In this document: piece by piece, positions 2,826 through 23,780 of the stretch | Layout: every line of letters begins with the position of its first letter | Numbering within the stretch: the first letter of the stretch is position 1 | Origin: a virus | Length of the DNA stretch: 34,665 nt | IMG/VR virus record: IMGVR_UViG_3300010371_000080 | Location: 1-34,665 of that record | Reading direction: 5' to 3' (one strand) | Program-made: the position numbers and the translations under genes | Notes under the pieces: model-generated | Seen by the model: the letters and a program-made list of their open reading frames with translations, nothing else | The model's database searches: none | What the model was told of the DNA's origin: nothing

Positions 2826-3779
2826 GTGGATTCAAAAGACCTTTCAGAATATGAAAAGCAATACCGTGACTTGCTAAGAAAGTTATCAGAAGTGGAAGCC
2901 GAGGATCTAAAGACAAAGAAAGCCTTGGTATTACGCATGAAAGAAGTAGTTGCACCCCTGATTGAATCAGGTAAGTTTTCAGGTATAAAAAAACAAGATA
3001 CCGCATTGTTCCTATATAATCAATTATCAGAATATGGTGTGACTTACGACAGAAGTCATTTTTACGAACTTTTTAATGAAAACGAAAAGCGGAACTATTA
3101 TCAAAGTAGCGACACGCTACATTCACATAATTTCATACAAGATCCAAAGAACCCAAGAATCAAGACTTGTGACTGTGGAGAAACCAAGATTGATGATATT
3201 GTCTATGAGCAAAAGACAGTAGATGAAGAACCAAAAGAAAAGACAGAAAGACCAGAGCCTGAACTAAATCTATCAAAAGAAGAAAAGCAAGGCTTGGAAT
3301 ATTTACAACGTGTTATCATAAACTCAAAGAACCTTGCAGACTTGACAAACGACATACTAGAGAAATTCAAGAAAGACAAGGAGTTACGTTCACCCATTCT
3401 AAAAGAAGTTGACAATATCACACAGAAAGTAGAAGAACAGAAAGGTATTGAATCAAAGATTTTAGCACTTACAAAGATGGCTGACTTTAGAAACAAAGTA
3501 GGCCCATTTGAGAAAATCATGGCAAAGGTATTGATTGACACAACATACAATATAGCAGCCGTAGCAAAACTATTATCAATATCTCCCAAACATGCTACCA
3601 ATAACATAGTTAAGCAAGATCATTATGAGAAACTAAAATGGTTTAGATGTTGTTTCAAATGCGGTGCCGATATAGCAGATTGGGCTAACGAGGAAATATT
3701 ACGAAAACAAAATTTTGATAAGCAAAAGAAAAATCAAACTAAAGATTTTATCCTTAATTCAAAATTACCTACACCTTGA
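2826..3779 (+). CDS. unknown 317-aa protein, coiled coil plus C-terminal HTH/zinc
   Basis: GTG start placed 25 nt downstream of a TATA box. Residues 1-45 are charged and helical (coiled-coil-like). A CDCGE pair lies at about 114-118, an acidic/Lys-Pro linker at about 130-150, a helical region to about 240, then a helix-turn-helix-like stretch TTYNIAAVAKLLSISPKHA, and CCFKCGADIADW near residue 275. It resembles a multi-domain DNA-binding or replication-associated protein but I do not recognise the family. It shares a nearly identical promoter with the holin-like gene at 26646. Overlaps the next gene by 4 nt (TTGA). Confidence 0.75.
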   Translation: MDSKDLSEYEKQYRDLLRKLSEVEAEDLKTKKALVLRMKEVVAPLIESGKFSGIKKQDTALFLYNQLSEYGVTYDRSHFYELFNENEKRNYYQSSDTLHSHNFIQDPKNPRIKTCDCGETKIDDIVYEQKTVDEEPKEKTERPEPELNLSKEEKQGLEYLQRVIINSKNLADLTNDILEKFKKDKELRSPILKEVDNITQKVEEQKGIESKILALTKMADFRNKVGPFEKIMAKVLIDTTYNIAAVAKLLSISPKHATNNIVKQDHYEKLKWFRCCFKCGADIADWANEEILRKQNFDKQKKNQTKDFILNSKLPTP

Positions 3780-4231
3780 AATACAAAAACGTTTTAGAGA
3801 GATTTTACGATTACATAGAAAAGACTAACTCCTGTTGGAATTGGACTGGACCTGATAGACCTAACGGTTATGGTAGATTCTGTGTTTTGTATAAGACTTA
3901 TTCTGCTCATAGATTCTCATATTTACTATTCAAAGGTCAAATTCCAGAAGGTTTATCGATTGATCATTTATGCCGTAACAGAAAATGTGTCAATCCCGAT
4001 CATTTGGAACTTGTAACGACCAAAGAAAACCTATTCAGAAGCGATGAAACACGGGCATCCATTAATAAAAATAAACAGCAATGTCTGAGAGGGCATCCTT
4101 ACGATTCACAAAACACTTACATCCATAACAACAAAAGATATTGTAAAATCTGTGTAAGAGAAAATGTTAGAAAATACCAAAACAAGAAGAAAGAATTACC
4201 TTTAAAATCCAAGGTTCAAATTCCTACATGA
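3776..4231 (+). CDS. HNH endonuclease
   Basis: 151 aa, TTG start overlapping the previous stop. Residues 20-90 match the phage HNH_3 pattern: CWNWTGPDRPNGYGRF, AHRFSYLLFKG, then the catalytic IDHLCRNRKCVNPDHLELVT with His-Asn-His metal site. A second zinc-like part follows (CLRGHPYD, RYCKICVRENVRKYQ). These are commonly homing endonucleases, or packaging-associated nickases when next to terminase. Here it lies about 2 kb before the terminase, so a mobile selfish gene or packaging aid are both possible. Confidence 0.9.
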   Translation: MKYKNVLERFYDYIEKTNSCWNWTGPDRPNGYGRFCVLYKTYSAHRFSYLLFKGQIPEGLSIDHLCRNRKCVNPDHLELVTTKENLFRSDETRASINKNKQQCLRGHPYDSQNTYIHNNKRYCKICVRENVRKYQNKKKELPLKSKVQIPT

Positions 4232-5768: not shown

Positions 5769-6164
5769 ATGGGTAAGTTAGCTACTGAAACCAGAGAGCA
5801 AATACGAGTTCTAACCTTAAGAGGTTTTAATGATTATCAGATTGCAGATAAACTAAAAATTGATAGAAGTATCTCTTGGTATCACTATAACAAAGTAAGA
5901 AAGTCAATCGAATATACCAACAGAAAAGACCTGATTGACTCATTTGATTCTGAATATGCCATGATTAGGGCATCATTTGATTATAGAAAGTCAAGATTAG
6001 AAGAAAGATTAGAGGCTACAAAAGATGAATCGACCATAGTAGCATTAGAGAAACTTATCCATCAAATTGACGTTGATAGGTGGAAATTACTTGGAGATAA
6101 TGAAATCGTGTTAGCAGTTCGTAGGATGAAGGATGAACGGGTTTCTCAAACAATTACAAAGTGA
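5769..6164 (+). CDS. terS: small terminase subunit (putative)
   Basis: 131 aa. Residues 5-45 form a helix-turn-helix (TETREQIRVLTLRGFNDYQI, then ADKLKIDRSISWYHYNKVRK), followed by long charged helices (about 58-118: RASFDYRKSRLEERLEATKD). DNA-binding N terminus plus oligomerising coiled coil, directly in front of and overlapping the large terminase by 32 nt, is the standard small-terminase layout. It would recognise viral DNA for packaging. First gene after a late-promoter box. The call rests on layout and position more than sequence identity. Confidence 0.7.
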   Translation: MGKLATETREQIRVLTLRGFNDYQIADKLKIDRSISWYHYNKVRKSIEYTNRKDLIDSFDSEYAMIRASFDYRKSRLEERLEATKDESTIVALEKLIHQIDVDRWKLLGDNEIVLAVRRMKDERVSQTITK

Positions 6165-7440
6165 GTTAACACCGGCTGCCGACTCAAATCCTCAGATAAT
6201 TCAATACCCACAAGACTTTATCGAATTTAACAAACAGATAGGCTTACCAATAAAAAACGGAATAGAACACCCAATTTACGACTATGAAGAACAGGTAATA
6301 CGAAACATTGAATCTAAAAAATACGTATGGGTTAAGAAAGCTACTGGTCTAGGCATTACAGAGTTAGTATTACGCTATATCGCTTGGAGATGTGTAAAGG
6401 ATGAATCTTGGAAGGGTGGACAGGTCTTAATCATTACAGGCCCAAGAATAGAATTAGCAGTTGGATTAATGGATAGGTTTAGAAAATTATTCAAGGATCG
6501 TACATTTGATACAAAAAATACTGTAACTGAAATAAACGGAGTAAGACTAGAAGCCTTCCCATCCCATCACCTAGATACTGCAAGGGGATTACCCAATGTT
6601 AAATTCATTTTCCTAGACGAGGCAGATTTCTTTCCAATTGGCGAACAGAAAAATGCTAGAGCAGTAGCGGAAAGATACATCCCAAAGTCAGATCCTTATA
6701 TTGTAATGGTATCAACACCTGACAGACCAGGTGGTTTGTTTGAGGATATGGAAAAGGAAATCAACTGCATGTATGAAAGGATGTTTCTGCCTTATACCGT
6801 TGGCCTAGGCAAAATCTATACCGAATCAGAGATAGAGCAAGGCAAGAAATCATTATCATTTGAACGTGAATATAACCTAAAATATGGTATGGGAATCGGT
6901 AATATCTTTCCTTACCAGTTAGTTGATTCAATAACTCAAGACTATAATTTATCAATACAAAATGGTGATAAGGTTCTATGTGTTGATCCTGCGTATGGTT
7001 CCAGTAAGTTTGGTATCTTGGGCGCAGAGAAACTAGACGGTGTTATCTACATCAAGGAAGCCATGCAGATAGAACGTGCAAGCCCTACTGCTATGTTAGA
7101 CTTGGTATCTTTGAAAGCCAATGATTACAACAAGAACGTAATAGTAGATTCTGCACACCCAGGACTGATTAAGGATTTAACAGAACGTGGAATCATGGCA
7201 AAAGAGTGTAATTTCAATAAAGAACTATCAGATATGACGGTTATAGCGAGTGATACGGTAAAGAATGGTATTGTACGAATACACCGAATCTATAATGACT
7301 TGCAACAACAACTCAAGGCAGTAGAGTTTAACGACAAAGGACACCCAGACAAGAAGAAACTTAATTTTGATTTGGGGGATTGCTTTCTAATGGCCTGCCA
7401 GTATTACAAACGCAGTTCTGGTTATTCAGTCATGGTGTAA
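6133..7440 (+). CDS. terL: large terminase subunit (packaging ATPase/nuclease)
   Basis: 435 aa. ATPase: Walker-A-like KKATGLGITE (68-77), Walker B FIFLDEAD (158-165), coupling motif STP (194-196). RNase-H-fold nuclease: VLCVDPAYGSS (D285), NVIVDSAHPG (D339), NFDLGDCFLM (D413/D416). Together these drive ATP-powered packaging and cutting of the DNA concatemer at the portal. The Walker A is unusual: it has G-L-G-I-T instead of GxGK(T/S), with lysines at its start (K68, K69), as in terminases that use an N-terminal lysine of the loop. Overlaps the small subunit by 32 nt. Confidence 0.95.
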   Translation: MNGFLKQLQSELTPAADSNPQIIQYPQDFIEFNKQIGLPIKNGIEHPIYDYEEQVIRNIESKKYVWVKKATGLGITELVLRYIAWRCVKDESWKGGQVLIITGPRIELAVGLMDRFRKLFKDRTFDTKNTVTEINGVRLEAFPSHHLDTARGLPNVKFIFLDEADFFPIGEQKNARAVAERYIPKSDPYIVMVSTPDRPGGLFEDMEKEINCMYERMFLPYTVGLGKIYTESEIEQGKKSLSFEREYNLKYGMGIGNIFPYQLVDSITQDYNLSIQNGDKVLCVDPAYGSSKFGILGAEKLDGVIYIKEAMQIERASPTAMLDLVSLKANDYNKNVIVDSAHPGLIKDLTERGIMAKECNFNKELSDMTVIASDTVKNGIVRIHRIYNDLQQQLKAVEFNDKGHPDKKKLNFDLGDCFLMACQYYKRSSGYSVMV

Positions 7441-9710: not shown

Positions 9711-10832
9711 TTGGATATTTACAGTCCTAGCAAGGCAATATTTCACACTGACAAGATAAAACAATTACAAGAACATAAACCGATAATTCCTACCTTATTA
9801 CAAGTCGATTTAGAGGCTTACTGCAACGACAACTGCATGTTTTGTTCTTACAGAAAAGAAAACGGTTACAACAACTCAATGCTTGATCTGATAGTTCCAA
9901 AAGGAAAGTTACCAATTATCAACGAAAACAAGCCAATAGGCCAGCCAAGCAAGCAATCAGGCTTGGATGAAGCAATGGCTTACAAGCTACCAATGATGAT
10001 GAAGCAAGCCGGAATACCTGCAATAGAATTAACAGGTGGTGGAGAGCCTACAATCTGGCCTCACTTTGATTATTTGTTAGATAACATCATTTCAAACGGT
10101 ATCGAATTAGGTCTTGTGACAAACGGTTCAAACCTAACACCTTCTAGAATCTCACGAATCGTATCATTTGGTACATGGATTAGGATCTCGATGGATGCAA
10201 GCAACCAAGAGACACATAAGAAGATTCACCGCACGCCAAACAATGATTTTGAAAGACGAATAGAAAATATCAAGAGTTTGGTAACTGCGAAAAAGGCTAG
10301 CAATTCGCAACTTACGATCGGAATATCGTTTATCATCACACCACAAAACAAGAGTGATGTAGAAGATTCAGCCCGATTCTATAAAAGATTAGGAGTGGAT
10401 AACATAAGATTCTCTTGGATGTATGACAAGGAAGGCCATGCCGGACTGACTGAAATCGACATACTAGCCTTGAAGATAAAACTTGGTGCATTAAAAAAAG
10501 AACTAGAAACAAGTGATTTCAAATTATTATATTCTAGTGACAGGATAGATTCGTTTTCTCAACCAAATACTGATTTTAACACTTGCTATTATCAAAGATT
10601 TGTCTGGTCAATCGGTGCAGATAATCTAGTCTATCCATGCTGTATTCAAAAGTATAACAAAGATTACGCCTTTGGAGATATCAGGAAAAACACGTTACTT
10701 GAACTCGTAGAACTAATGAATGAACAAATGACAAACTTGGATGTAAAGATGTGTTCACCTTGCTGGCTTAGAGACAGGAACAAGTCAATAGCTTCCGCAG
10801 TAGAACAACCACCACACCATAACTTTGTATGA
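9711..10832 (+). CDS. radical SAM enzyme with SPASM/twitch-like C terminus
   Basis: 373 aa from TTG, 25 nt after a late-promoter box. YCNDNCMFCSYRK gives C38-x3-C42-x2-C45, which ligates the [4Fe-4S] cluster that cleaves S-adenosylmethionine; ELTGGGEPTIW is the GGEP SAM-binding motif; LVTNGSNL and WIRISMDASN are further barrel strands. The C terminus has FNTCYYQ, LVYPCCIQK and KMCSPCWLRDRNK, the cysteine pattern of an auxiliary-cluster SPASM or twitch domain, common in peptide-modifying and sugar-modifying members. It overlaps a glycosyltransferase by 4 nt and sits between portal and capsid genes, so a substrate in virion or cell-surface modification is likely (inference). Such an enzyme is unusual inside a head module. 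Confidence 0.88.
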   Translation: MDIYSPSKAIFHTDKIKQLQEHKPIIPTLLQVDLEAYCNDNCMFCSYRKENGYNNSMLDLIVPKGKLPIINENKPIGQPSKQSGLDEAMAYKLPMMMKQAGIPAIELTGGGEPTIWPHFDYLLDNIISNGIELGLVTNGSNLTPSRISRIVSFGTWIRISMDASNQETHKKIHRTPNNDFERRIENIKSLVTAKKASNSQLTIGISFIITPQNKSDVEDSARFYKRLGVDNIRFSWMYDKEGHAGLTEIDILALKIKLGALKKELETSDFKLLYSSDRIDSFSQPNTDFNTCYYQRFVWSIGADNLVYPCCIQKYNKDYAFGDIRKNTLLELVELMNEQMTNLDVKMCSPCWLRDRNKSIASAVEQPPHHNFV

Positions 10833-11557
10833 CTCCCAAGGTATCAATAATCATACCAGTTTACAACTGTGAAAAATACATTACACGGTGTATTGATTCT
10901 TGCTTGTTACAAACTTATCCTAATGTTGAGATAATTGTTGTAGATGATGGAAGTACGGACAAAACTTTGGATTTGTTGCAATTTACAGAACATATTAAAT
11001 TAATACACAAGGAAAATGGCGGTACTGCGTCTGCGTTAAATGCCGGAATCAAAGAAGCTAAGGGTGAGTGGATCAAGTGGGTAAGCTCTGATGACGTACT
11101 TACAAATGATGCAGTTGAAATCCTAGTCGAGAACGCATTAAGGACACCTGACAATCAAAACGTGATTTTCTATACTGATTATTGGTATATTGATAACAAG
11201 GGAGTAATTACAGGCGAGTTTATCGAAAGAAACCTAAATCATTTAACCCAACAGGAAAGAAATCAATTACTATGGCAGTATTTCTACGGTAACGGTTCAT
11301 CTAGCTTGATCCACAAGTCAGTCTTTGACAGAGTCGGACTTTATGATGATACCTTGAAAGCGTCAGAGGATTATGAATTTTGGTTACGGGCCTGTCTTGT
11401 CTATGGTGTGAGGCTTTACTTGATACAGAAAAAGACTCTGTATTACAGAAGGCATGAGGATCAACTGACTCATAAGATGGGTGGATATTATGATTCTATT
11501 ATCAGAGAGAAAATACAAAAATTATTGAATGGTAAAGATTCTACTGTGTCGGGCTAG
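10829..11557 (+). CDS. family 2 glycosyltransferase
   Basis: 242 aa, ATGA overlap. Classical GT-A/GT2 sequence: VSIIIPVYNCEKYITRCIDS, VVDDGSTDKT (D39-D40), ENGGTASALNAGIKEAKGEW, then the DxD-type metal site SSDD (86-89) and SEDYEFWLRA near residue 188 that holds the catalytic acid region. Transfers a sugar from an NDP donor, with inversion. No membrane segments, so cytoplasmic. In a virus it could glycosylate capsid or tail proteins or alter the host surface. Overlaps the next gene by 29 nt. Confidence 0.93.
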   Translation: MTPKVSIIIPVYNCEKYITRCIDSCLLQTYPNVEIIVVDDGSTDKTLDLLQFTEHIKLIHKENGGTASALNAGIKEAKGEWIKWVSSDDVLTNDAVEILVENALRTPDNQNVIFYTDYWYIDNKGVITGEFIERNLNHLTQQERNQLLWQYFYGNGSSSLIHKSVFDRVGLYDDTLKASEDYEFWLRACLVYGVRLYLIQKKTLYYRRHEDQLTHKMGGYYDSIIREKIQKLLNGKDSTVSG

Positions 11558-12326
11558 TCCTCGTTGTAATATACCAGAAGTAGAAACAGAAAATGACAGA
11601 TTACAATGTGATAGGTTTCTAGTCTGTTTCAAGAACGAGTTTGAAGCATACGCACAGATGAGAGATTACTTTCTAGCACATAATCAATATGATTACATGG
11701 TTTTAGCAACTGATGATATAGTAGTAAAACCTGAACACATTGCACAACTAACCGAGGATCTAACTACTGGTGATTATCCTGTACTTGGTGGAATGATGAA
11801 TGTAGATGAGAATGATACCGAGAATGTAAACATCACATGGATTTTACCAATGACTGATAGGGGTGCAAGGGAGTATAGATGGATTAAGAGAAGTGAGTTA
11901 CCACAAGAAAACATATTTCAAGTATCGTTTAATGGATTTGCATTACTAGCTATTAGAAGGGATATTGTCGAGGATTACATTTTCAATACTGACGCCATAT
12001 TCAGAGATGGTGAAAAGAATCTAGCATTTGGTGCATCATTAGACTTTGTATTTTGCCACTGGTGTAACCAGAAAGGAATCAAGATTTACACTGACAAGCG
12101 AATAGACATGAAACACCTAAGAAACTCTGGTAAGATACAATGCGGATTAAGACCGCCTGAATGGTGGAGTATGAGGTCATATAGTTCAAAGAAATACCGT
12201 GACGATACAGGCGCAATGTATCGACTGTTAAAAGCAAGAGAAAGATACATTGAGAAAGGAAAATTCAGTCATGAGGATCATAACCATACAATAGATGCAA
12301 TCTTTGACGCCTTGTTAAATCCGTAA
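11529..12326 (+). CDS. glycosyltransferase-like protein, paralogue of 15317 gene
   Basis: 265 aa. Starts MVKILLCRASPRCNIPEVET; ATDDIVVKPEHIAQL (about 59-74) has a DD motif at a GT-A-like DxD position, then PVLGGMMNVDEN, FNGFALLAIRRDIVEDYIF and KGIKIYTDKRIDMKHLRN. The same succession (SDIVV, ISGMMN, FPLMCLSRKIVEQY, GIKIFCDKRIKLLHLK) occurs in the 216-aa protein at 15317, so the two are diverged duplicates. Consistent with a sugar-nucleotide-binding transferase; no closer family recognised. Coupled to the GT2 gene by a 29-nt overlap. Confidence 0.7.
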   Translation: MVKILLCRASPRCNIPEVETENDRLQCDRFLVCFKNEFEAYAQMRDYFLAHNQYDYMVLATDDIVVKPEHIAQLTEDLTTGDYPVLGGMMNVDENDTENVNITWILPMTDRGAREYRWIKRSELPQENIFQVSFNGFALLAIRRDIVEDYIFNTDAIFRDGEKNLAFGASLDFVFCHWCNQKGIKIYTDKRIDMKHLRNSGKIQCGLRPPEWWSMRSYSSKKYRDDTGAMYRLLKARERYIEKGKFSHEDHNHTIDAIFDALLNP

Positions 12327-14613: not shown

Positions 14614-14700
14614 ATGTTCGAGTTAGAGGATATTTTAGATTATTATCGTGGATTATTTTTACAATACTGCCTTATCATAACAAAGTGTTTTGGATGGTAA
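14614..14700 (+). CDS. possible 28-aa ORF
   Basis: ATG just after the T-rich stretch, reading MFELEDILDYYRGLFLQYCL, hydrophobic at the end. Its stop (TAA 14698-14700) overlaps the ATG of the next gene at 14694, which hints at coupling. No promoter box recognised. Weak. Confidence 0.3.
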   Translation: MFELEDILDYYRGLFLQYCLIITKCFGW

Positions 14701-15320
14701 AGTCTGCTGCCGGTGTATGTTGGTATCAGGATCATCTTATTACACGTACACTAGATTCTATTCAAGGTCATTTTGATTACATCTTTGTAATTGATGGTAG
14801 ATTCGAGTTAAATCCATCAAAAAACGATTACTCTGATGAAACTTTAAGGGAAAAAGTAAGACAATATGACAACGTTATCCTAATAGATTTTATCGGTTCA
14901 GAGGAAGATAAGCGAGGCCAGTACCTATTACAATGCAAAAAATATGACGTTGATGTCTTACTGATTATAGACTCGGATGAGTATATCAACAAAAATACTG
15001 ATTGGGATTTATTCTGGAATAATCTGCCAACAAAACAAGGCACGTATTCGGTTCTTGTAATGCCTAATGATATTTACTTGCCAAGAATTTGGATAAAACC
15101 TTACAATTTTAGATACTATAATGCTCACTGTATTTTCCAAGACATAACAACTGGTGAGATAAGATCATCTGGTGACTCGGGAAAGATAAAACTGCAAGGC
15201 CTGATTTTAGAGATGGGTAAAGATGAACCAAGAACCGCAGAATATCTAGAAAATACAAGAATTTATCAGGAACGAATGATAGAGAAGGAAACCCCAATTA
15301 GAAAAGCAATCCATCCATGA
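14694..15320 (+). CDS. glycosyltransferase family 2-like protein
   Basis: 208 aa from ATG 14694 (a GTG at 14685 is also possible). N terminus MVKSAAGVCWYQDHLITRTL, DYIFVIDGRFELNPSKNDYS, then VDVLLIIDSDEYINKN with the DSDE metal-site motif (about residue 84), and a region typical of GT2-type sugar transferases. It is separated from the GT2/radical SAM cluster only by protease and capsid, and coupled to the next transferase-like gene by ATGA. Likely cytoplasmic; acceptor unknown. Confidence 0.78.
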   Translation: MVKSAAGVCWYQDHLITRTLDSIQGHFDYIFVIDGRFELNPSKNDYSDETLREKVRQYDNVILIDFIGSEEDKRGQYLLQCKKYDVDVLLIIDSDEYINKNTDWDLFWNNLPTKQGTYSVLVMPNDIYLPRIWIKPYNFRYYNAHCIFQDITTGEIRSSGDSGKIKLQGLILEMGKDEPRTAEYLENTRIYQERMIEKETPIRKAIHP

Positions 15321-15967
15321 AACTTTTGCTAGGTGTACCGTCACCATTTGATTTCAAGCTAGTAGAAAAACACCAGAAACACTTGCAGGTGGATATGATA
15401 AAACCAATGTATTATGAGGAAGTGGAAGCTTATTCCATCATACGAGATTACTTTCTAAAACACTCTGAATATACACACCTTGTCATAGCTTGCTCTGATA
15501 TCGTAGTGAATCAGGCCCATATTGACCAATTAATCAAGGATTTACAAGAAAAAGAGTATGATGTAATTTCAGGCATGATGAATATTTGTCTGGAGTATCT
15601 TGATGTTTACAATGTCACAAGTAACGTAGTATATCCACTTGCTCCGGAATTTATGTGGTACACAGAATCTACATTACCAAAAGAAGATATCTTTGAGGTC
15701 AAATGGTCTGGGTTTCCATTAATGTGTCTGTCTAGAAAGATAGTCGAACAATACGAGTTTGAACCGTTATCAAGTATTATTCCTGATGAACGTTTGAAAG
15801 GTAGTTTAGATGTTGTACTATGTTGGAAACTGCACCAAGACGGAATCAAGATATTTTGTGATAAACGAATCAAACTATTACACCTAAAAGAGATACAGGA
15901 AGAATCACAACCTCTGTTAGTTGGAATAAAAAAACCACGAATAGAATACAGTAATCTTTTATCATAG
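15317..15967 (+). CDS. glycosyltransferase-like protein, paralogue of 11529 gene
   Basis: 216 aa, ATGA overlap. Key blocks: YTHLVIACSDIVVNQAHIDQ (about residues 51-75), DVISGMMNICLEYL, WSGFPLMCLSRKIVEQYEF, SLDVVLCWKLHQDGIKIFCD. These match the 265-aa protein at 11529 in order and spacing. It lacks the longer C-terminal tail of that paralogue. The SDIVV block would be the nucleotide-sugar/metal site if it is a GT-A enzyme. The stop is followed by a zinc microprotein gene. Confidence 0.68.
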   Translation: MKLLLGVPSPFDFKLVEKHQKHLQVDMIKPMYYEEVEAYSIIRDYFLKHSEYTHLVIACSDIVVNQAHIDQLIKDLQEKEYDVISGMMNICLEYLDVYNVTSNVVYPLAPEFMWYTESTLPKEDIFEVKWSGFPLMCLSRKIVEQYEFEPLSSIIPDERLKGSLDVVLCWKLHQDGIKIFCDKRIKLLHLKEIQEESQPLLVGIKKPRIEYSNLLS

Positions 15968-17031: not shown

Positions 17032-17184
17032 TTGGCTGATTCTGGTATCAAAATTAAAACCGAAGATTCTTCTAATGACGGTTTCGTTTGTGAAACACAT
17101 CCCCTTGAAGATGGTAAGATAGTTCACTATTTACATAATCCAAAAACTGGCGAATGGAAAAAGTCTGAGGTTTGTAAGAAATGA
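17032..17184 (+). CDS. 50-aa small protein upstream of tail tube
   Basis: TTG start at the exact distance expected from the promoter box; stop overlaps the tail tube ATG. Reads MADSGIKIKTEDSSNDGFVC then ETHPLEDGKIVHYLHNPKTG, a small beta-rich protein with two cysteines. Not recognised; possible tail or neck accessory. Confidence 0.6.
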   Translation: MADSGIKIKTEDSSNDGFVCETHPLEDGKIVHYLHNPKTGEWKKSEVCKK

Positions 17185-18083
17185 CAACCAACAAGACTAC
17201 GACAGCGCAGTTATTTGTCAAGGTTCCACAATATGTAGAGGAAACAACAGAAGGAACAACACCAACTGCCTCACCAACCTTTACAGCATGTGGCCCAACT
17301 TCCACACTTTCATTAAAAATTGATGGTGGGTTTGTAGAGGTAGGCCAGTTAGGTGCAGAGGATCTTATCGCCCTAGTAAGAGGATTACAAAAATTCGAGG
17401 TACAGATCAAGACAACATTAACCAATTCTACTTTTCTAAAATATGGCTTCAATGCCGCAAACTATGCCACACCAACAGGTACGGTATCGGCAACACTTTC
17501 AATTCTATTTTCATTCTATCTTAACGGAGTAGAGAATTTCTGTATAATCAAGGGTGCAAGATGCAAACAGGTTCAAGTCGATGTAGAGATAGGAAAGCCA
17601 CATGAAGCAACATTTGACTTTGAAGCAGTAAATATCATCACTCCAATTACTACTGCAAACGCAGGTCTTACAACACCAACATTTGCCTCGACTCCATCAG
17701 GCACAGTTTGGGATCACTTGTCAGGTGGTACAGGCCCAGTATCTTGGAACTCTACCGCAATCGACTGTAAGAAATTCAGTATTACGATAAACAGAAACAC
17801 CACACCAGATTATACATTAGGTACAGCAACACCATTTTCAACCCAACCACATGGAAGAAAGATAGCAGGTGATTTTACCAATCTTTATACATTAACAACA
17901 CTTGATGCTGATTTCCAAGCAGGTACTTCAAGAACTCTCGCAGTTGTATTAAAAACTGCAACTTCTACCATTACCTGCACAAGCGCTTACATTGTAAACT
18001 ATACAAGAGATTCAGACGAATCAAGCACAGATGCAAGAATAGAACAGTGTAACTTCAAGTGCCTTTCTGCAACCGTAACCTAA
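17181..18083 (+). CDS. major tail tube protein
   Basis: 300 aa, ATGA overlap. Beta-rich, Thr/Ser-rich: KVPQYVEETTEGTTPTASPT, GPTSTLSLKIDGGFVEVGQL, KFEVQIKTTLTNSTFLKYGF, then KFSITINRNTTPDYTLGTAT and KIAGDFTNLYTLTTLDADFQ. This is the tail tube fold pattern (hexameric rings), and it precedes the frameshifting chaperone and tape measure as in siphoviruses. No sheath gene follows, so a long non-contractile tail is expected. Sixteen or more Thr in some 60-residue stretches; could be a glycosylation substrate (inference). Confidence 0.82.
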   Translation: MTTNKTTTAQLFVKVPQYVEETTEGTTPTASPTFTACGPTSTLSLKIDGGFVEVGQLGAEDLIALVRGLQKFEVQIKTTLTNSTFLKYGFNAANYATPTGTVSATLSILFSFYLNGVENFCIIKGARCKQVQVDVEIGKPHEATFDFEAVNIITPITTANAGLTTPTFASTPSGTVWDHLSGGTGPVSWNSTAIDCKKFSITINRNTTPDYTLGTATPFSTQPHGRKIAGDFTNLYTLTTLDADFQAGTSRTLAVVLKTATSTITCTSAYIVNYTRDSDESSTDARIEQCNFKCLSATVT

Positions 18084-18084
18084 A

Positions 18085-18441
18085 ATGTTACCTGACAGCG
18101 TTACCATAGACGGCAAGCAATTCCAAGCTAAAAGAAGAATGTCTTGGGGTGAAGTATCACAGGTAAGAAAGTTTGCTTCACAAATGATGAATTTTTCAGA
18201 CAAGTTTGCAGGCAAGCAGGTATCTGACTTGAAACCAGAAGATTTTGCCGAGATAAACAAGCTATATGTAACAACACAAGAGTCTGATATGGAACTTATG
18301 AAAAATATTCTAGTTGCATGTTATGGATTTTCACAGGAAGAATTAGACGTACTTGACTATGCTACTGCTTTGGAACTATACAATAACATATACAACCAAA
18401 GCACCCAGATTAAAAAAAAGTTAGATCAGACATCAACTTAG
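18085..18441 (+). CDS. tail assembly chaperone, short form (gpG-like)
   Basis: 118 aa, ATG one base after the tail tube stop. Reads MLPDSVTIDGKQFQAKRRMS then a helical body with NFSDKFAGKQVSDLKPEDFA and ELMKNILVACYGFSQEELDV. Size, position between tail tube and tape measure, and a slippery sequence at the 3' end identify it as the first part of the chaperone that coats the tape measure during tail assembly. Confidence 0.8.
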   Translation: MLPDSVTIDGKQFQAKRRMSWGEVSQVRKFASQMMNFSDKFAGKQVSDLKPEDFAEINKLYVTTQESDMELMKNILVACYGFSQEELDVLDYATALELYNNIYNQSTQIKKKLDQTST

Positions 18442-18662
18442 CTTTTGCATTAAACAATACTACCGAGTGTGATACAGAGTCCTTAGAGGCTATAATGAAA
18501 TATAACATGTTGAAAACATTTGGATGCTCTTACTCTTGGAATACTTTAGACAATGAGGACAATCTGGGAATATTGTTACTAAATTATTGCATGACACAGG
18601 AAAACAAGGCAATGGAGAGAAACAATGCAAGAAACAAATTCTATCAAGAGGCTTTACAATGA
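18085..18662 (+). CDS. tail assembly chaperone, -1 frameshift form (gpGT-like)
   Basis: At 18412-18420 the sequence is eight A then G (ATT AAA AAA AAG), a classic -1 slippery stretch including A-AAA-AAG. Shifting back one base avoids the stop at 18439-18441 and opens VRSDINLAFALNNTTECDTE, SLEAIMKYNMLKTFGCSYSW, ending with TGA at 18660-18662, which overlaps the next ATG. The downstream frame has no close start codon and good protein composition. Fusion length 192 aa. The T-part recruits the tail tube protein in lambda-type tails. Confidence 0.85.
18412..18420 (+). promoter_or_regulatory. programmed -1 frameshift slippery site
   Basis: A8G following GATT. Codon phase is AAA AAA AAG in the zero frame. 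No obvious strong stem was found just downstream by eye; a pseudoknot cannot be excluded. Confidence 0.78.
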
Positions 18663-19135
18663 CAAACATTAGGATAGCGATAGCAGGCTACAAGGCAACC
18701 CATGCAATTCTAGGCGGCATAGTTCAAAACATGGATCAAGCCACAAGTGAAGTATTACAAAAAATTGGTGAAGATATTGTTCAGGAAGCAAAATCAAACT
18801 TGCAAAATAACGGTAACATATCAACTGGATCTTTACTTGGTTCAATCGAAGTAAAACAGAATCTTGGTAACTCGCTAGTGGTAGGCTCTGATCTTCCTTA
18901 TGCTGGAATAATTGAATATGGTAGGGGGCCAGTAACTCCAAAGGATGCCATTGTCTTATCTTGGATTGACAAGACGACAGGTAAAAGAGTATTTTCGCAT
19001 TATTCAAAAGCCGTAGAACCTCACCCGTATCTAGAACCTGCCGTGCAGACAGCTTTGAAAGGTCTTAGTGGTGTTTATACTGAAAAGATGGGTAAAAACT
19101 TAAAGGTTAGTTCTGATTCGTTGGAACAAGTTTAA
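18659..19135 (+). CDS. HK97 gp10-like tail completion protein
   Basis: 158 aa from the ATG overlapping the frameshift-form stop. Pattern: ATSEVLQKIGEDIVQEAKSN, STGSLLGSIEVKQNLGNSLV, GSDLPYAGIIEYGRGPVTPK, KAVEPHPYLEPAVQTAL. These are hallmarks of the HK97 gp10/minor tail (neck) family: helix, STGxLxxSI, YAxxxExG, and HPYLxPA. It closes the head-tail junction. The unusual position after the chaperone rather than before the tail tube is a rearrangement compared with most siphoviruses. Confidence 0.85.
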   Translation: MTNIRIAIAGYKATHAILGGIVQNMDQATSEVLQKIGEDIVQEAKSNLQNNGNISTGSLLGSIEVKQNLGNSLVVGSDLPYAGIIEYGRGPVTPKDAIVLSWIDKTTGKRVFSHYSKAVEPHPYLEPAVQTALKGLSGVYTEKMGKNLKVSSDSLEQV

Positions 19136-19402: not shown

Positions 19403-19828
19403 TTGGTATTAAAAAATACTGATGAATTTCTACAATTAGAAAGACTGAGAAATAGAAAGTACCATGCTTTGAATAAAGAAAAAATTAGTGAGCGAAAAAG
19501 AAGATATTACAAAAGAGATCCAGCAAAAGTTTGTATAAATAAAAAGAATTATCGTGATAAATTAAAGAATAGATTATACTCAATACTAGGTGGTTCAAAA
19601 TGTGTACGTTGTGGGTTTTCAGACGTTAGGGCATTACAATTTGACCATATCAAAGGTGGTGGAAGAAAAGACCTGTTAAGATTTACAAATTCATGCCAAA
19701 TGCACCTTTTTTATTCTAATAACCCAGATGAAGCTAAGGAAACACTTCAAGTCTTATGTGCAAACTGTAATTGGATTAAGAAGAACGAAAATAAAGAATT
19801 TCACCGACCTGTAAAATATCTTAATTAA
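19403..19828 (+). CDS. HNH homing-type endonuclease
   Basis: 141 aa from TTG. Basic N-terminal half (ISERKRRYYKRDPAKVCINK) and HNH part: GGSKCVRCGFSDVRALQFDH, then ETLQVLCANCNWIKKNEN. CxxC, FDHI and CANCN give a zinc-stabilised HNH site. It sits alone between a membrane protein gene and the tape measure, each side with its own signals, the typical position of a mobile intergenic nuclease. Distinct from the HNH gene at 3776. Confidence 0.88.
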   Translation: MVLKNTDEFLQLERLRNRKYHALNKEKISERKRRYYKRDPAKVCINKKNYRDKLKNRLYSILGGSKCVRCGFSDVRALQFDHIKGGGRKDLLRFTNSCQMHLFYSNNPDEAKETLQVLCANCNWIKKNENKEFHRPVKYLN

Positions 19829-19863: not shown

Positions 19864-21831
19864 ATGTCTGATTCTTCGGGTGTATCAGTTCCATTACGCT
19901 GGAAGATAATGGTAGAAGGCGCCCAACAAGCTAAACAACAACTAGCAGATTTAGATCAACAATTTTCAAAAGGTCAGATTTCAATTTCAGATTATGCTAA
20001 AGGGCAGAGACAGTCATTAAGAGATGTCAGGGCATTAAACAACGAACAAAGAGTACAAAAGGAAGTTTTCCTAGCTTCAAACCCAGCTCTAAACTCATTA
20101 TCAAAATCAATGAGTACCGTAGGTGCAGTATCAAATACATTGCTTGGAATCACAAACGCAATTAACTTAGCTCAATTAGCAAGTATCGGTGTAAATGAAA
20201 AGGTAACTGCTGCAACACAACAACTAGCCGCAGATCAAAGACAATATCAAATAGATTTAAGAGATTTTCCAAATGATGTTGCGTTACATCAAGCAGACTT
20301 GGCAAAGATAGCAGCAGATCAATCTAACCTAGCATTTGTAACTAGGCAGGCAACATATCAACAAATAACCGATTGGATAACACTTGGTTCATCTGCCGCA
20401 ATAAGTGCAAACCAAATAATTCAAACATACTCAACATTGGCACCAAAAATAAAGAATTTCTCACAAGGTACACAGGATGCAATCGGATTAGCAGGTCTTA
20501 GTGGAACTTTCCTTGTTTTAGGGGCGGCTGCCTTAATTGCTGGAACACAACTAGGTACAGGATTAAATCCAGACAATGTAGATAAGTTTAGACAATCATT
20601 AGACAAAGCATTTGGTGATAACCCATTTACCAATTATATAATATTACCAATAGCTGCATTAATAGCAGATTTAGACGGATTCAAAACTGACTGGCAAGAC
20701 GTAATGAATGATATAGGTGATAGTTGGGCCGGATTTGTTAATATCTTCATTAGTGGTTTCAACGCTGTAAATAGCGTACTTAGTAAGTTTGAATCAAACC
20801 CAGTTCCAAACATACCGTTAATGAAAACATCATCAGAAATTGCTCAAGCCGCGCATGCAAACAGTATAAACAATATGCTTACAGGCCAGCCATTTAATTC
20901 TGTAAATCCTGAACAGAAAAAACAAACCGAAGTATTAACAACTACGCAACAGATAATCAATGACGCTAAAAAAACAGGACAGGATTTAGTCGCTTCCATA
21001 ACATCAGCAACAAACCCAACTCTACAAAAAGTATCAGATGGTATTACACAATCAAACACATTACTTTCAGGTCTAGTGGATTCGGCACAACAGGCTAACC
21101 AGAGGGCGGTATATCAATCACAAATACAAACTCAGGTTAATCAAAAGGCGCAAATTCAAGATAAAATTAATCAAATAAATTCAGGAAGAATGAGTATGCC
21201 TAGTCTAAGTGATATTGACCAGAGTACCAACGTACCACAGTTACAGGCTAACATATCTAAAAATAATGCAGAGATTGATGCAAAAATAAAACCCTTACAG
21301 GATCAATTAGACCAATTAGAAGTAGGTACTCAAGGTGCCTTATCGAGTTATCTTGGTTCAATCGGTTTGAGTGGAGATTATGGAATTGGATCAGTTGTTT
21401 CAGGTGCTTTAGGTGGTGCTAGTGCCGGATGGACATCTGGTGATGTTCAAGATTTTATTAATACCCACGACTATGGAGTTTTCACTAGGGCGGCTAACAG
21501 GGATAACGGTGTTGCACATGTACCAACCAAACAGGAACAGATAGACGCTTGGATGAAGGCAACTGGTGGGAGTGCAGCAGAAGCAAAATACGCATTACAT
21601 TATTCTGCATCAGGTTATGATGGTATAGTTTCAACTGCTACAAGTTTCATAGCTGGAGAATCAGGCGCAGAAAGAGTTTCAATCAAGCCCGTAGGTACAA
21701 ATGGCAGTATGGGCGGTCAGACTGTAATAATTGTAAATGTCGCAGGTTCTGTACTTGCACAAAGAGACTTGGAAACAATCATCTCAAACACCAATAAGAA
21801 GAATCTAAAGACTCGTGGCTTTGGAATGTAA
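19864..21831 (+). CDS. tail tape measure protein
   Basis: 655 aa, by far the longest protein. Long alanine/glutamine-rich helices (AQQAKQQLADLDQQFSKGQI), a hydrophobic stretch GLAGLSGTFLVLGAAALIAG (about 218-240) and another at about 257-270, further coiled coil about residues 410-490, and a C-terminal cap KPVGTNGSMGGQTVIIVNVA after FIAGESGAERVSI, the conserved GExGxE end of many tape measures. Sets tail length; at about 0.15 nm per residue this predicts a tail near 100 nm. Preceded by its own promoter box. Confidence 0.9.
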   Translation: MSDSSGVSVPLRWKIMVEGAQQAKQQLADLDQQFSKGQISISDYAKGQRQSLRDVRALNNEQRVQKEVFLASNPALNSLSKSMSTVGAVSNTLLGITNAINLAQLASIGVNEKVTAATQQLAADQRQYQIDLRDFPNDVALHQADLAKIAADQSNLAFVTRQATYQQITDWITLGSSAAISANQIIQTYSTLAPKIKNFSQGTQDAIGLAGLSGTFLVLGAAALIAGTQLGTGLNPDNVDKFRQSLDKAFGDNPFTNYIILPIAALIADLDGFKTDWQDVMNDIGDSWAGFVNIFISGFNAVNSVLSKFESNPVPNIPLMKTSSEIAQAAHANSINNMLTGQPFNSVNPEQKKQTEVLTTTQQIINDAKKTGQDLVASITSATNPTLQKVSDGITQSNTLLSGLVDSAQQANQRAVYQSQIQTQVNQKAQIQDKINQINSGRMSMPSLSDIDQSTNVPQLQANISKNNAEIDAKIKPLQDQLDQLEVGTQGALSSYLGSIGLSGDYGIGSVVSGALGGASAGWTSGDVQDFINTHDYGVFTRAANRDNGVAHVPTKQEQIDAWMKATGGSAAEAKYALHYSASGYDGIVSTATSFIAGESGAERVSIKPVGTNGSMGGQTVIIVNVAGSVLAQRDLETIISNTNKKNLKTRGFGM

Positions 21832-22085: not shown

Positions 22086-23780
22086 GTGACAGGCCCGACA
22101 AGACAACCAGAGCTACCAGTGGTACAAATTCAACAAACCGCAGATGGTGGCTCGTTTAGTTCCATTTACCAGTTTAACCCGTTATCATCACCCAAAGTTC
22201 TAGACTTTAACGTTGTATCATTGACCTGCAAGCCACCTGCTGACAGGACAGGCGGTAAGTTTGAAATTAAAATCACTTCACCTAGTGCTGATAATAGTAC
22301 AATGAATACGATACTAAGTAACATAGTAGAAGGGTGTCAGGTTAAAATCTACAAGGGAAAGACTAACGCAGGTAAATCACTATGTTTTCTTGGTATAATA
22401 GAATCAATAGAAATAGAAGAACCAAACAAGAATCTAATGTTTGTAACTTTATCCGGTCCTGATTGGGGTTCTGATATTCTAAAAAATCGTGTAATTAACG
22501 GTTCATGGATTCAAAGAAGATTGGCAGGTGATCCCACACAGGTAGATACCGCAGACAATAGCACAAAGATTTCTCAAATTATATCAGATATGGTTTCTGT
22601 TTCTAATCGTTACCTTGATCTCAACGGTCCAACAGTTGCACAGCAGGGCATAGTCTATTCAAGTACCTATGTCGTGCCTAGTCCTGATTTACAAGTATCT
22701 CAATTTGAAGCAAACGCTGAAAAAATAGACGACAAACTTTCTGCTTTGGATGATCTTTCAGGTTCAGTCCATTATGTAGATCCTAACAAGAATCTTGTAG
22801 TAAAGCCTGCATTAACTGCTTCTGCTTCCGGTGTATTGATTACAGATGATGTAAATGATTCGGTAGCTTCTACATGGGATCAAACAAAACTGGCTTACAT
22901 TGCACCTGGTAGCAAGTACAAACGAACTTTGGAAAATCACAAGTCAAAGTTATTGGGCTTGGGTGGTGATCAGACAACAATAGACCAGAGCAAGACTACA
23001 ACTACAAACTCGACTAATTTGGATTCTAATTATATTGCCATGCAGTTTATTCCAGTCTTTAACCAATGTGCGCAGATTGATGTTTATTGTGGTTGGGTTG
23101 GAACTCCTACCTCTAATCTTGTCTTGATTCTCGTAGAAGATAATGCAGGATTGCCGACTGGAAGTGTCATACGTACAATACAAAAGGCACCTTCTGATGT
23201 TCCAAGTAGTGGTAATTGGGTATCATTTCCAATTAATGAAACTCTGAACATTGCCAAGAAATACTGGATCGTATTATCAAAAACTGGAACTGCCCCAAAT
23301 ACTTTCAAGTGGTACCGTGACGCCTTAGATACTGGTGTTATCGCAACGTCAGCAGATGGTGTTACCTATACTCTTACAAGTACACCTAACAGGTTCAATT
23401 ATTCTTATCGTGAATATTACTCGACTTCATTGATTTCTATTTATCCACCTTCGGTATCATCAACATCAAAACACTTGCATGAAGAAGTTTACCGTTATGC
23501 CTACATACACCAACAGGCTATCTTGACAAATTACCTCACAGCAATAGCCGGACCATTGACACAAAGAAAAGACATGATTACCTGCTTGATTTATGCGCCT
23601 GATGTTTTGTTATCAATAGGTCAGTCTGTACGTATCAGAAAACAACAATCTGGTTATGTTGTAGATGGAACCTATACGATAGGTGATATAGAGTACATCT
23701 TCCAAGCCGATGATTCGGGAGTAACAGGAACTTTCTATTACCAGATTCAGGCTACGGTTTTCACGCCATATACCTATTAG
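22086..23780 (+). CDS. baseplate hub/tail protein with inserted carbohydrate-binding-like domain
   Basis: 564 aa from GTG, chosen by promoter distance. Residues 1-300 and 450-564 look like a phage tail hub (gp27/Dit-Tal-like): GGKFEIKITSPSADNSTMNT, VKIYKGKTNAGKSLCFLGII, SGSVHYVDPNKNLVVKPAL, and C-terminal DVLLSIGQSVRIRKQQSGYV, TYTIGDIEYIFQADDSG. Between about 310 and 450 lies a jelly-roll-like module (QIDVYCGWVGTPTSNLVLIL, KAPSDVPSSGNWVSFPINET, AKKYWIVLSKTG) resembling domains that bind sugars on cell surfaces. It forms the tail tip and may contact the host S-layer glycans (inference). Confidence 0.75.
   Translation: MTGPTRQPELPVVQIQQTADGGSFSSIYQFNPLSSPKVLDFNVVSLTCKPPADRTGGKFEIKITSPSADNSTMNTILSNIVEGCQVKIYKGKTNAGKSLCFLGIIESIEIEEPNKNLMFVTLSGPDWGSDILKNRVINGSWIQRRLAGDPTQVDTADNSTKISQIISDMVSVSNRYLDLNGPTVAQQGIVYSSTYVVPSPDLQVSQFEANAEKIDDKLSALDDLSGSVHYVDPNKNLVVKPALTASASGVLITDDVNDSVASTWDQTKLAYIAPGSKYKRTLENHKSKLLGLGGDQTTIDQSKTTTTNSTNLDSNYIAMQFIPVFNQCAQIDVYCGWVGTPTSNLVLILVEDNAGLPTGSVIRTIQKAPSDVPSSGNWVSFPINETLNIAKKYWIVLSKTGTAPNTFKWYRDALDTGVIATSADGVTYTLTSTPNRFNYSYREYYSTSLISIYPPSVSSTSKHLHEEVYRYAYIHQQAILTNYLTAIAGPLTQRKDMITCLIYAPDVLLSIGQSVRIRKQQSGYVVDGTYTIGDIEYIFQADDSGVTGTFYYQIQATVFTPYTY

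Follow-up and report, generated by a model that had tools for sequence, protein, structure and literature searches.

A predicted −1 ribosomal frameshift in the presumed tail-chaperone gene of a tailed virus of probable ammonia-oxidising archaea

The DNA analysed here, referred to as the window, is a stretch of 34,665 nucleotides from a viral record (IMG/VR IMGVR_UViG_3300010371_000080). Directly behind its major tail tube gene lie two overlapping open reading frames, ORF1 and ORF2, of which the second is open in the −1 frame relative to the first. The features relevant to this arrangement are as follows.

6133 to 7440, plus strand: large terminase subunit (TerL), 56.7% identical over 93% to that of Nvie-Pro1; phrog_2, E = 1.3e-18
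17181 to 18083, plus strand: major tail tube protein, directly upstream of ORF1; Pfam Phage_tube_2, E = 3.1e-16
18085 to 18441, plus strand: ORF1, the G-like, zero-frame product of the presumed tail-chaperone gene, 118 aa, ATG start
18414 to 18420, plus strand: A_AAA_AAG slippery heptamer within the A8G run at 18412-18420; a canonical heptamer is present in the overlap of all 36 loci of the −1 type
18420 to 18662, plus strand: −1 frame extension, T-like domain of 80 aa after the slip, ending in TGA at 18660-18662; matched by a T profile
18439 to 18441, plus strand: zero-frame stop TAG, end of the short product
18659 to 19135, plus strand: HK97 gp10-like tail completion protein; PF04883, E = 2.6e-6, and phrog_5, E = 1.5e-9
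19864 to 21831, plus strand: probable tape measure protein, 655 aa, assigned by position only
22086 to 23780, plus strand: homologue of the putative baseplate protein of Nvie-Pro1, 25% identity, E = 4e-21

Three ORFs separate the pair from the tape measure candidate, namely the gp10-like gene, a small ORF and an HNH-like ORF. The candidate itself was placed by position only; it had no PHROG match and no Pfam match above the cut-off, and in BLASTP it did not resemble the tape measure of Nvie-Pro1 (best E = 0.11). By eye, two ORFs of the window resemble HNH endonucleases in translation (3776-4231 and 19403-19828), the second of them being the HNH-like ORF named above. A radical-SAM-like ORF (9711-12326) and a glycosyltransferase-like ORF (14685-15967), also recognized by eye, lie among the head and tail genes.

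The end of ORF1 reads ATT AAA AAA AAG TTA, in which AAA AAA AAG (18412-18420) are codons 110-112. The last seven bases of this run, A_AAA_AAG, are therefore in the X_XXY_YYZ phase of simultaneous slippage, six sense codons upstream of the ORF1 stop. After a −1 slip, reading would restart at 18420 and continue for 80 codons to the TGA, giving a fusion of 192 aa in total, and the −1 stop overlaps the ATG of the downstream gene at 18659 (ATGA). The original prediction had described the A8G run in this phase and a clean −1 frame open to 18662, and the layout is confirmed in coordinates, phase and fusion length. Its statement that there is no alternative start was inexact, as an in-frame ATG is present at 18495, 25 codons past the slip. 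The product from this start would be 55 aa long and would lack 25 residues at the start of the second domain.

Several features of this site are unusual within the window. The A8 run is the sole long homopolymer in the 34,665 bases (scanned for A/T runs of at least 8 and G/C runs of at least 7). In a count over 31 window ORFs (7,859 codons), there is a single zero-frame A_AAA_AAG, and there are 29 canonical heptamers of any kind. The −1 frame stays open for 73 codons beyond the ORF1 stop, with P = 0.0016 in 5,000 dinucleotide shuffles. Because 5% of codon shuffles of ORF1 also place a canonical heptamer of some kind within the 28-nt overlap, the evidence from the window alone is suggestive, not conclusive. 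No Shine-Dalgarno-like stimulator was found upstream of the slip site, and the predicted downstream structure is unremarkable (z of 0.08 and −0.33 against mononucleotide shuffles, in an analysis of 28 loci of an earlier set). The window contains no tRNA gene according to ARAGORN and no match to an Rfam family at or above the gathering score.

The TerL of the virus was compared with 50,697 phage records, in which the only match at E ≤ 1e-3 was Nvie-Pro1, a provirus of Nitrososphaera viennensis. Identity to Nvie-Pro1 was 56.7% for TerL, 23.8% for the tail tube and 25% for the baseplate protein, and the tail tube protein of the window is 46% identical to those of two proviral loci of a Nitrososphaeraceae metagenome-assembled genome (MAG). 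As judged by homology of these three proteins, the window virus is a relative of tailed viruses of ammonia-oxidising archaea. Its host is very probably an archaeon of the Nitrososphaeria group, given the TerL kinship to Nvie-Pro1 and the related proviral loci in archaeal genomes; the same two observations bear out the earlier description of the window as an archaeal-type virus. The more distant viral loci need not all have archaeal hosts, because one TerL relative (L095, 33%) is found in a contig titled Candidatus Neomarinimicrobiota bacterium. Four further TerL relatives (L014, L016, L018 and L021, about 47% identity) have no recognized Phage_tube_2 gene in their records and thus appear to have a different or very divergent tail module.

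Relatives were gathered by three routes: TerL, the tail tube family (in archaeal genomes and in the records of the TerL loci) and an alignment of tail tube proteins. For each locus, the sequence downstream of the tail tube gene was read. Searches of viral contigs with single proteins (ORF1, the tail tube protein or TerL) returned no relative, whereas alignment queries succeeded; in the genome contigs, a first scan gave no locus and a second scan gave 16. The TerL-led sets, including the window, contained 22 distinct loci with enough sequence, and all 22 showed an ORF2 in the −1 frame with a canonical heptamer in the overlap. The tail tube class search contributed 13 further evaluable loci (six −1 with heptamer, five +1 and two without such a pair), L138 was one additional −1 locus with heptamer, and all seven distinct new loci of the tail tube alignment search were −1 with heptamer. 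In total, 36 of 43 evaluable distinct loci are of the −1 type, five are +1 and two (L125 and L128) have no such pair. The −1 label describes the frame of ORF2, and the heptamer count is a test independent of it.

Sub-loci and duplicates were left out of these counts (L001, L004, L008-L011, L036, L052, L104-L111, L114, L122 and L176-L179), as were loci with too little sequence past the tail tube gene (L055, with ORF1 only, L064, L072, L075, L117, L120, L130 and L137) and L134, whose protein is not a tail tube protein as judged from its neighbours. L181 was retained although it is close kin of L180. L175 is open in a +1 frame as well as in the −1 frame and was counted as −1 because of its T-like sequence and heptamer. 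The least certain loci are L129 and L183, which are divergent, with T regions of 126 and 97 aa.

All 36 −1 loci have, in the overlap, an in-phase heptamer of the canonical X_XXY_YYZ form. The most frequent was T_TTT_TTA (22 loci), followed by C_CCT_TTA (four), C_CCT_TTG (three) and A_AAA_AAC (two), and five occurred at a single locus each: A_AAA_AAG in the window, C_CCT_TTC, T_TTA_AAA, A_AAT_TTA and A_AAA_AAA. Codon-shuffle chances ranged from 0.011 to 0.53 per locus and sum to about 7.5 loci expected, compared with 36 observed; since the loci are related, this expectation is not a test of independent trials. A tree of the tail tube proteins of 35 loci requires a minimum of eight changes of the heptamer core, or seven if three long branches are removed. 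The distance from the slip to the ORF2 stop was 74-90 codons in 32 of 36 loci. By sequence comparison, the arrangement is conserved among the relatives, which strongly supports the earlier proposal of a −1 frameshift following the lambda G/GT logic. The original prediction had also looked to conservation of the slippery stretch. Here the exact A run reaches only to the two nearest relatives, L173 and L174, and what is kept beyond them is the class of slip site. These two relatives both carry A_AAA_AAC, with runs of nine and six A's, respectively, and form a supported clade with the window (99/96). L175 retains T_TTT_TTA (4048-4054), an unusual T run for sequence with a G+C content of 62%.

Translation of the −1 frame in the relatives is supported by pairwise differences. 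Six loci of one viral clade were compared over ORF2 codons 38-59, which lie past the ORF1 stop: read in the −1 frame, 95 differences are synonymous and 78 non-synonymous, compared with 15 and 158, and 8 and 164, in the other two frames. The ORF2 segment of eleven loci gave 350 and 429 in the −1 frame versus 78 and 682, and 27 and 732, in the others. Five of the six loci of that clade have no ATG, GTG or TTG between the slip and the end of codons 38-59. The −1 frame of this clade is therefore under coding selection ahead of almost any start codon. Elsewhere, the ORF2 of L038 is entirely free of these three codons, and in nine other loci the first start codon comes 61-66 codons after the beginning of the heptamer, inside the conserved domain.

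Homology to the relatives divides at the slip site. A profile of ORF1 from seven Nitrososphaerales-type loci matched the window ORF1 (E = 8.7e-10), and a T profile from seven such loci matched only positions 18414-18659 among 302 segments of the window (E = 0.0038), with the alignment starting directly after the slip. A T profile built from all 27 other loci of the earlier set missed this segment. The window ORF1 shows homology to L173 up to residue 111, immediately ahead of the slip, and the window T domain is homologous to L115 and L116 from directly behind the slip onwards. The T domain of L173 also matched that of the window, with none of 1,000 shuffles as good, in addition to the matches of L115 and L116; taken by itself, the T domain of L174 did not match that of the window (220 of 1,000 shuffles as good).

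Candidate stimulators were found at some of the relatives. In eight viral loci (L084, L045, L112, L056, L081, L062, L060 and L086), a Shine-Dalgarno-like sequence (GAGGT, GAGGTG or (A)GGAGGT) precedes T_TTT_TTA by 5-6 nt, Nvie-Pro1 has AGGAGG 14 nt upstream of its slip site, and several relatives have no such element. These elements may stimulate slipping in the eight loci and in Nvie-Pro1. Downstream structure with z below −2.5 at 80 nt was seen only in L115, L038 and L086 (28 loci, mononucleotide shuffles).

The A8 run also raises the question of whether the frame is changed in the RNA before translation, with RNA polymerase adding an A, so that some transcripts would carry the whole fusion as a single frame. 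In bacteria, such slippage at long runs of A is known (PMC3711429), and the only long run of the window lies exactly at this site, with nine A's in L173. However, the near relative L174 has six A's only, and eight of the 36 loci have CCCTTTN with no long run (L002, L003, L103, L126, L127, L180, L181 and L182). A long homopolymer is thus not kept among the relatives, and the shared feature is the codon-phased heptamer, not run length. We consider transcriptional slippage improbable and prefer ribosomal slippage, since codon-phased heptamers persist in relatives that have no long run. A simple error in the run is far more improbable still. Homopolymers are error-prone, and one added A would fuse the two frames into a single ORF, but the same type of frame break is found in 35 other loci, several of them without a long homopolymer.

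A different possibility is that no frameshift takes place and that ORF2 is a separate gene, translated from its own start or by re-initiation past the ORF1 stop. Nvie-Pro1 is annotated in this way as two genes, the window offers the ATG at 18495, and a start codon occurs within about 10 codons of the slip in L002, L115, L116, L127, L131, L174, L180 and L181, among others. This explanation does not account for L038, whose ORF2 has no usable start codon, for the nine loci with a first start only within the conserved domain, or for the heptamer in the overlap of all 36 −1 loci. Two separate genes are most unlikely, slightly more so than transcriptional slippage.

Homology gave little indication of the function of ORF1. 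The window ORF1 matched no chaperone family in PHROG or Pfam, and among 20 of 28 ORF1 members scanned, phrog_344 and phrog_1442, both annotated as tail assembly chaperone, matched one member each, perhaps the same one (E = 2.3e-4 and 1.7e-3). An AlphaFold model of ORF1 (pLDDT 73) was compared with PDB and BFVD, where nothing reached E ≤ 0.001; among its best 50 BFVD matches are six named tail assembly chaperone, all of them weak. The earlier assignment as a tail chaperone fits the gene order, although the window ORF1 matches no chaperone family, and we infer this role for the pair from synteny and recoding, not from homology.

Taken together, the locus is highly likely to carry a programmed −1 ribosomal frameshift of the lambda G/GT type in a predicted tail-chaperone gene of a tailed virus of probable ammonia-oxidising archaea. 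In this presumed scheme, which extends to the slip and its efficiency alike, most ribosomes would stop at the TAG at 18439-18441 and release the 118-aa G-like protein. A minority would slip back by one base, with both tRNAs moving on A_AAA_AAG, and continue in the −1 frame to give the 192-aa GT-like fusion. If the lambda model applies, the short protein and the fusion alike would hold on to the tape measure protein and deliver it to the tail tube protein as the tail is assembled. The tRNA complement of a possible host may influence the slip. A genome carrying a copy of Nvie-Pro1 (G169), presumably N. viennensis because its tail region reads as in FR725450, has tRNA-Lys(CUU); tRNA-Lys(UUU) was not seen among the 34 tRNA matches of an incomplete scan, with three unresolved by ARAGORN. 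If it reads AAG, tRNA-Lys(CUU) could weaken slipping on A_AAA_AAG compared with E. coli.

The five +1 loci (L118, L119, L121, L123 and L124) are proviral and come from genomes of the same order as the Nitrososphaeraceae MAG; behind the tail tube gene, their ORF2 is shifted +1 relative to ORF1. The overlap contains TTT_CGC in four of them (L118, L119, L123 and L124), with a codon-shuffle chance for TTT_CGN of 0.003-0.024 each; L118 and L119 are alike, and so the four are not fully independent. None of the five has a canonical −1 heptamer in the overlap, and L121 lacks TTT_CGC too. This pattern suggests, from the sequences compared, that the direction of recoding has switched within one archaeal order. 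UUU_CGC is close to UCC_UUU_CGU, the PA-X site of influenza, and among the −1 sites A_AAA_AAG is of bacterial type, while A_AAA_AAC and U_UUU_UUA are of eukaryotic type. We lean, by a narrow preference, towards a model in which ribosomes of ammonia-oxidising archaea support tandem −1 slippage on A_AAA_AAG, A_AAA_AAC and U_UUU_UUA, combined with a switch at the level of the order between −1 heptamers and proviruses with +1 UUU_CGC. A likely counterpart of the +1 set is the halovirus HSTV-2 (KC117376; L135:14982-15813), whose chaperone is annotated as a joined CDS with TCC_TTT_CGC in the +1 overlap. Like the window, it shows tail-chaperone recoding in an archaeal virus; its shift is given as +1 in a section of PMC5009743 and therefore differs in direction from that of the window, resembling instead L118, L119, L123 and L124.

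Comparison with known systems places the window within a wider pattern. A conserved tail-chaperone frameshift in tailed phages was reportedly described by Xu, Hendrix and Duda in 2004. The lambda G/GT system, summarised in part of PMC5009743, shares with the window the tail tube gene followed by two overlapping ORFs and a −1 shift at an X_XXY_YYZ site near the end of ORF1. It differs in that the window has the gp10-like gene, the small ORF and the HNH-like ORF ahead of the tape measure candidate, an ORF1 with no detected homology to known chaperones and a host that is predicted to be archaeal. Recoding of this kind in archaeal viruses is already known as a proposal: −1 tail-chaperone frameshifts have been put forward for the haloarchaeal viruses HVTV-1 and HCTV-1, -2 and -5 (in a passage of PMC5009743) and for Hardycor1 at G_GGA_AAT (in a passage of PMC7911831). 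These resemble the window in the proposed −1 shift in an archaeal tail chaperone; however, their hosts are haloarchaea, whereas the window is of Nitrososphaeria type with A_AAA_AAG and relatives that mostly use T_TTT_TTA. The stretch 1-50,000 of HCTV-1 has no annotated tail genes. For cellular genes, A_AAA_AAR frameshifting has been proposed in the magnesium chelatase genes of Methanocaldococcus and Methanococcus (also in part of PMC5009743).

We found no report of tail-chaperone frameshifting in Nitrososphaeria viruses in the main texts searched, and supplements or the original Nvie-Pro1 paper may mention it. The main texts of PMC6563490, PMC9859776, PMC11849493 and PMC11705971 contain no word beginning with frameshift, and PMC8651126 does not use the word frameshift, with "Frameshifting" appearing once in the title of a reference on chelatase genes. 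With the present analysis, predicted programmed frameshifting also covers viruses of ammonia-oxidising archaea, and a naturally occurring set of candidate slip sites (A_AAA_AAG, A_AAA_AAC, U_UUU_UUA, C_CCU_UUN and the +1 UUU_CGC) becomes available for studying how archaeal ribosomes and tRNAs slip.

One of the closest known systems is Nvie-Pro1 (FR725450), which has the same TerL family as the window, the same order in its genes 17-20 and a −1 overlap with C_CCT_TTG. It differs in that the pair is annotated as two hypothetical proteins, in its heptamer, which lies directly before the stop, and in a tape measure unlike that of the window by BLASTP. Genes 18 and 19 correspond to L002:12237-12826, where C_CCT_TTG immediately precedes the stop of gene 18. 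On the basis of this overlap, genes 18 and 19 are probably one frameshifted gene, and annotators could join pairs such as this one, which now stand as separate hypothetical proteins.
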